From Microcaldota archaeon (GTDB taxonomy: Archaea; Micrarchaeota; Micrarchaeia; Anstonellales; Bilamarchaeaceae), in NCBI GenBank assembly GCA_018813505.1, contig JAHJBM010000087.1, positions 1-38,392 on the forward strand: a DNA stretch of 38,392 bases, given 5' to 3'. The first letter of the stretch is position 1; the number at the start of each line of letters is the position of its first letter. Shown here one piece after another: positions 31,865 to 32,312 of the stretch. The position numbers and the translations under genes were made by a program. The notes beneath the pieces are model-generated. The model was not told where the DNA came from. It did no database searches and was given only the letters and a program-made list of their open reading frames with translations.

Positions 31865-31983
31865 AATGCGACAGAGAGGGGCAAGCTCCTCTTGTCCCAA
31901 AATTTTGAAAAAATTTTGCGATTGCTTGAACGGCGTTCCGTTCAAGGCTCGCATTTCACTTCGTTCAAATGCGATCGCCGGGA

Positions 31984-32116
31984 AAATCGTTGCGTGTCCT
32001 GTTGTCCATTTTCTGTTTCGTCACTGGAAACCGAAAACTTAAAACCGGAAACCAATTGAAACGATATTTCGTTTCAATGGTCCATTGAAATGTAATACAT
32101 TTCAATCGGACGCAAT
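31984..32116 (-). other. tRNA-Gly intron 2 (T-loop, 59/60), 133 nt
   Basis: Near-canonical BHB: CCGGG-TTCG-AT|A-TTGCG ... CGCAA-CGAT-TT|T-CCCGG (three Watson-Crick pairs plus a T.T in the central helix). Confidence 0.82.
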
Positions 32117-32160
32117 ATCGAACCCGGGCCCCGAAATTGGCAATCTCGGATCATAACCGT

Positions 32161-32202
32161 TGAGCTCTTTGTAAATTCAAATATTTGAATATTGCAAAGA
32201 TT
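32161..32202 (-). other. tRNA-Gly intron 1 (D-loop), 42 nt; boundary ambiguous by up to 2 nt (repeated AA)
   Basis: Relaxed bulge-helix-bulge possible: AGT-CTA|AA-TCTTTG ... CAAAGA-GCT-CA|ACGG; internal palindrome ATTCAAATATTTGAAT. Confidence 0.7.
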
Positions 32203-32312
32203 TAGACTACGATCGCAGCATAAACGATATGTGCAGTTCTGCATTTAGCGTTTGATGTTCACTATGGTTGATTGAAAAGTAATTAAATCATATCGAAAAG
32301 TTTTGTAGCAGT

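Follow-up and report, generated by a model that had tools for sequence, protein, structure and literature searches.

The window considered here, 38,392 nt in length, is contig 56 of a 95-contig, 1.54-Mb MAG (completeness 91%) of a DPANN archaeon. Sequence analysis confirmed that its minus strand carries a tRNA-Gly(GCC) gene at 32216-31970, in which three exons are separated by two introns (Table 1). The pairings on which a preliminary description of the locus had relied are all in place: the acceptor strands GCGATCG (32216-32210) and CGATCGC (31977-31971), the anticodon arm CGAGA-TTGCCAA-TTTCG (32148-32132), with the GCC anticodon at 32141-32139 of the minus strand inside exon 2, and the T stem formed by CCGGG (32127-32123) and CCCGG (31982-31978). 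The precursor spans ~247 nt, and removal of insertions totaling 175 nt leaves a product of 72 nt.

Table 1. Parts of the tRNA-Gly(GCC) gene and of its T-loop intron (positions in the window)
Feature	Position	Strand	Description	Evidence
Exon 1	32203..32216	-	acceptor 5' strand GCGATCG, TA, D-stem 5' strand GTCT, A14	sequence and spliced alignment to congener tRNA
D-loop intron, 42 nt	32161..32202	-	boundaries slide 1-2 nt	
Exon 2	32117..32160	-	remaining D arm, anticodon arm, variable loop of 4 nt, 5' strand of the T stem, TTCGAT	
T-loop intron, 133 nt	31984..32116	-	relaxed bulge-helix-bulge	
Palindrome pair, 58 nt, nested in T-loop intron	32052..32109	-	in this genus, further copies in introns of other tRNAs and between genes	
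Heptanucleotide-repeat core, GTTTYNN units	31995..32051	-	shares homology with T-loop introns in the tRNAs for Trp, Gln, Glu and Arg	
Exon 3	31970..31983	-	final base of the T loop, CCCGG (3' strand of the T stem), CGATCGC (3' strand of the acceptor stem), discriminator A	

The unspliced gene gave no tRNA call by ARAGORN and no Rfam match, in keeping with the expectation in the preliminary description that default annotation would probably miss it. Removal of the 42 and 133 nt proposed there yielded a 72-mer that ARAGORN called as tRNA-Gly(gcc), identical at 65/72 positions to the intronless tRNA-Gly(GCC) of a congener (G011) of the same length; the joined exons thus form a cloverleaf with identity elements, as in archaeal intron-containing tRNA genes. 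The difference from G011 in the acceptor stem, C5-G68 to T5-A68, is compensatory. A spliced aligner run against the intronless congener tRNA-Gly(GCC) recovered exactly the two introns with a score of 253; the highest score in 300 dinucleotide shuffles was 105, the rest of the window did not exceed this value, and chance is therefore excluded. In an independent DNA search of relatives, the middle exon was found in many of them at ~90% identity, and the match ended at query base 110 (32117), which is exactly the proposed T-loop splice site.

In the bulge-helix-bulge suggested earlier for the T-loop intron, the outer helix is well supported, TTGCG (32115-32111) pairing with CGCAA (31994-31990) at a probability of 0.88-1.0, but the central helix (TCG/CGA) has only 3 bp and a probability of ~0.2, so that the motif is of the relaxed kind. 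The D-loop intron, likewise described as having a relaxed motif, is supported by the congener exons, and exon length conservation sets its position within 1-2 nt; its splice motif is weak, and an A/A slide leaves the junction uncertain by 1-2 nt. This intron contains the helix TCTTTG/CAAAGA and the palindrome ATTCAAATATTTGAAT, and an intron-intron similarity comparison found no relative of it among the other introns of the genome.

The T-loop intron owes its unusual length to a nested repeat. It consists of a 75-nt core, of the type called B below, and the 58-nt palindromic pair, and with the palindromes removed the core could be aligned with T-loop introns from the tRNAs for Gln, Trp, Glu and Arg (z 6.3-8.7). 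Nesting of this kind also occurs in Gly-CCC, with an intron of 259 nt versus 75 nt in Gly-TCC (z 9.9), and in Gln-TTG, with 200 nt versus 78 nt in Gln-CTG (z 8.5); one 29-nt palindrome is identical between the Gln-TTG and tRNA-Gly(GCC) genes. A strict palindrome pattern occurred at 14 sites in 8 genomes, all of them, as judged by eye, inside tRNA introns. Restriction of the palindromes to tRNA introns was nevertheless rejected, since less strict members lie between genes in this genome (L258, L260-L263, L266, L268), where they form clusters of variable palindromes of the CCRATTGAA...TTCAATGG type. An assignment to REP elements mobilized by a Y1 transposase was also discarded, as a search of the genome for Y1_Tnp (PF01797) returned no matches.

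The preliminary description had presented a T-loop intron of this length together with a D-loop intron as unusual. The introns are upheld by the present data, but the gene is not a lone oddity, as disruption extends to nearly every tRNA gene found in the genome. The tRNA genes were located with a composite query that combined congener tRNAs of 34 anticodon classes, and 36 of them were rebuilt with 71 intron calls, a few of them imprecise (Leu-CAA was split in two by the aligner and Ser-GGA was mis-parsed). Only Met, Ser-GCT and Leu-CAG are intronless; the other 33 genes are interrupted, most carry two to three introns, and ~10 carry three. ARAGORN accepted 35 of the 36 spliced sequences as tRNAs. 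Intron lengths reach 259 nt, and D-loop introns are located in most tRNAs at the place occupied in Gly(GCC).

Three types of intron were distinguished by eye: type A (CTTTTGACTT...GGCAAAACCC..GGGAAAAGCC.TGAGG...), type B, with heptad repeats and often TTGCG/CGCAA ends, and type C (CTTTTTAGTAAAAAG...CAAAAAC). No Rfam family matched the introns. Similar introns were paired across isoacceptors in 48 cases and across loop positions in 34, versus 0-1 in shuffled sets, which is the pattern of transposed introns. In this genome type A turned up only at tRNA loci, bar chance-level matches; the heptad pattern is dispersed, with 41 matches in tRNA introns and elsewhere versus 1 with a reversed control. 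One heptad repeat (L110, G000:C43:16829-16854) lies, by eye, within an apparent NAD(P)HX epimerase/dehydratase-like reading frame. The tRNA-Pro(GGG) gene (L256, G000:C67) seemingly has two T-arm introns with an exon of ~4 nt between them, and a congener locus (L100) is alike. Copies of tRNA ends were also observed. Those of at least 8 nt lie outside the gene for 4 of the 36 genes, versus ~0.1 expected (loci noted: L111, L254 and L241), and in Ser-GGA (L111) tandem units begin with the tRNA 5' end GCTGAGGT. At the tRNA-Gly(GCC) gene, TCGCA recurs on the minus strand at 31974-31970, 31921-31917 and 31871-31867, in downstream steps of ~50 nt between hairpins.

The remaining glycine genes of the genome are also interrupted, CCC by three introns and TCC by two. 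An intact second tRNA-Gly(GCC), the presence of which had been named beforehand as evidence against the gene, was sought with both a tRNA-Gly query and the congener tRNA composite, and none was found in the assembly; given its completeness of 91%, a second GCC gene could sit in the missing part. The genome encodes a 394-aa endonuclease that is a full-length homologue of the ARMAN-2 epsilon2 enzyme (4FZ2; E 4e-127), in which the catalytic triad (Y238, H253 and K284) and the loop lysine (K163) are conserved, corresponding to Y236, H251, K282 and K161 of ARMAN-2. The host is thus predicted, from sequence homology, to possess an activity suited to relaxed motifs. Enzymes of the epsilon2 class are described as having a broad specificity that includes such motifs (PMC6379350, PMC12397907), and introns in the D and T loops are known from archaea (PMC6379350). 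A second EndA-like protein of 176 aa (L044, 1258-1788), in which the catalytic Tyr and His positions are replaced compared with 1A79, is perhaps a structural subunit.

The two insertions, 175 nt in all and one of them containing dispersed repeats, could be taken as the mark of a decayed pseudogene, with the work of the inactivated tRNA-Gly done by another gene. This is highly improbable: the exons are intact and show the compensatory acceptor change, no further GCC gene was found, and if the 33 interrupted genes were all pseudogenes, the loss would be unaffordable for a living cell. Doubt of a narrower kind attaches to the D-loop segment. The weak splice motif, the A/A slide and the sequence GAGCTCAACGG, which mimics a D arm, would fit an alternative D arm in the pre-tRNA, in which case the segment would not be a separate intron and the true boundaries would lie several bases off. 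The congener exon gives GTCTA-xCGGTTATGAT with a total length of 72 in both tRNAs, and most tRNAs of the genome have D-loop introns at the same place, which together make an alternative D arm improbable.

The age of the introns is less firmly constrained. The SRP54 protein encoded in the window is 53-80% identical to those of MAGs labelled Micrarchaeota, Nanoarchaeota and 'ainarchaeum', LFW-283_2 included. LFW-283_2 is Candidatus Forterrea multitransposorum, whose genus NCBI assigns to Candidatus Iainarchaeota, and the window accordingly comes from a DPANN archaeon of this group. Presence and absence of the introns vary among close relatives, with an intronless tRNA-Gly(GCC) in at least nine congeners (G001, G002, G004, G005, G006, G009, G011, G013 and G016), and both introns are also absent in several genomes of other genera of the family (G023, G031, G032 and G035). 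In members of further genera of the family two introns interrupt the gene at exactly these points (L025, L030 and L040 are examples), as would be expected if the double-intron state were ancestral and the introns had been lost in the intronless congeners. The SRP54 tree places the genome among those congeners with moderate support (86/81); intron gain in this lineage is favoured, and loss in the relatives is still a candidate. An ancestral state is nonetheless rather unlikely in view of the many intronless relatives, and because the intron ends and repeats in the window match introns of other tRNAs in the same genome, which points to intragenomic spread. The number of Rfam-visible tRNAs per congener ranges from 3 to 39, and intron load thus varies within one genus.

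Taken together, the locus is very probably a functional, single-copy tRNA-Gly(GCC) gene from which both introns are cut by the epsilon2 endonuclease, and the T-loop intron a transposed one enlarged by the palindromic pair. The gene would be transcribed as a precursor of ~247 nt, and the ARMAN-type endonuclease would remove the D-loop and T-loop introns at relaxed bulge-helix-bulge motifs by two cuts per intron, after which a ligase would join the exons. The known exon-joining ligase of archaea is RtcB. The T-loop intron would have arisen as a member of an intron family common to many tRNA genes of the genome, with the dispersed palindromic pair inserted later. More generally, the endonuclease may permit introns to spread among tRNA genes, and nested growth by dispersed repeats may follow. 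It is possible, if doubtful, that new bulge-helix-bulge-spliced tRNA introns arise from the heptad arrays and palindromes themselves, which would make these an archaeal counterpart of eukaryotic introners. If so, a repeat landing in a tRNA loop would be tolerated, being excised by the epsilon2 endonuclease with its broad specificity, and repeats would then pass from one tRNA to the next. For off-target spacer integration as a source of introns, our literature search found no paper.

The contrast between congeners with 39 and with 3 Rfam-visible tRNAs means that the gain and spread of introns can be traced stepwise within a single genus, empty sites and nested insertions included. It is also of practical concern that default tools can badly undercount tRNAs in such DPANN genomes, with consequences for inferences that rest on these counts. 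A search of the literature outside the subscription journals for tRNA introns in Diapherotrites, Micrarchaeota and DPANN found nothing describing such a case.

Taken by itself, the gene is an ordinary example of a multi-intron archaeal tRNA gene. Among the complete genomes assessed in the tRNAscan-SE 2.0 survey, Pyrobaculum calidifontis has the most introns, with 71 in 46 tRNA genes (PMC8450103), and the Thermoproteales have multi-intron tRNA genes and large-scale intron transposition according to Fujishima et al. 2010, as cited in PMC4033280. The system described here resembles theirs in that a tRNA has up to three introns, in the D, anticodon and T loops, that introns of different tRNAs are alike, and that the endonuclease is of broad specificity. 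It differs in belonging to a DPANN phylum, in its epsilon2 rather than (alpha beta)2 endonuclease, and in its ~71 introns in the 36 genes found, with lengths of up to 259 nt and dispersed heptad and palindromic repeats inside; the intron density in this genus is equal to or higher than in the Thermoproteales. The endonuclease parallels that of ARMAN-2 (Ca. Micrarchaeum acidiphilum) over its full length, with triad and loop lysine retained (PMC12397907, PMC6379350), whereas the additional shorter EndA-like gene, with its changed Tyr and His positions, sets this genome apart. In Caldiarchaeum subterraneum, heterogeneity of tRNA-Thr led to a mobile-element model of tRNA disruption and intron gain (PMC3293823). 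Intron gain at the species level and partial copies of tRNA ends near tRNA genes are common to both organisms, but there a single gene and an integrase-bearing element are involved, while here almost all tRNA genes are affected and no element with an integrase emerged as the cause. What is new, compared with these systems, is the scale on which such introns occur in a DPANN genus, their epsilon2 setting, their length and the dispersed repeats nested within them.
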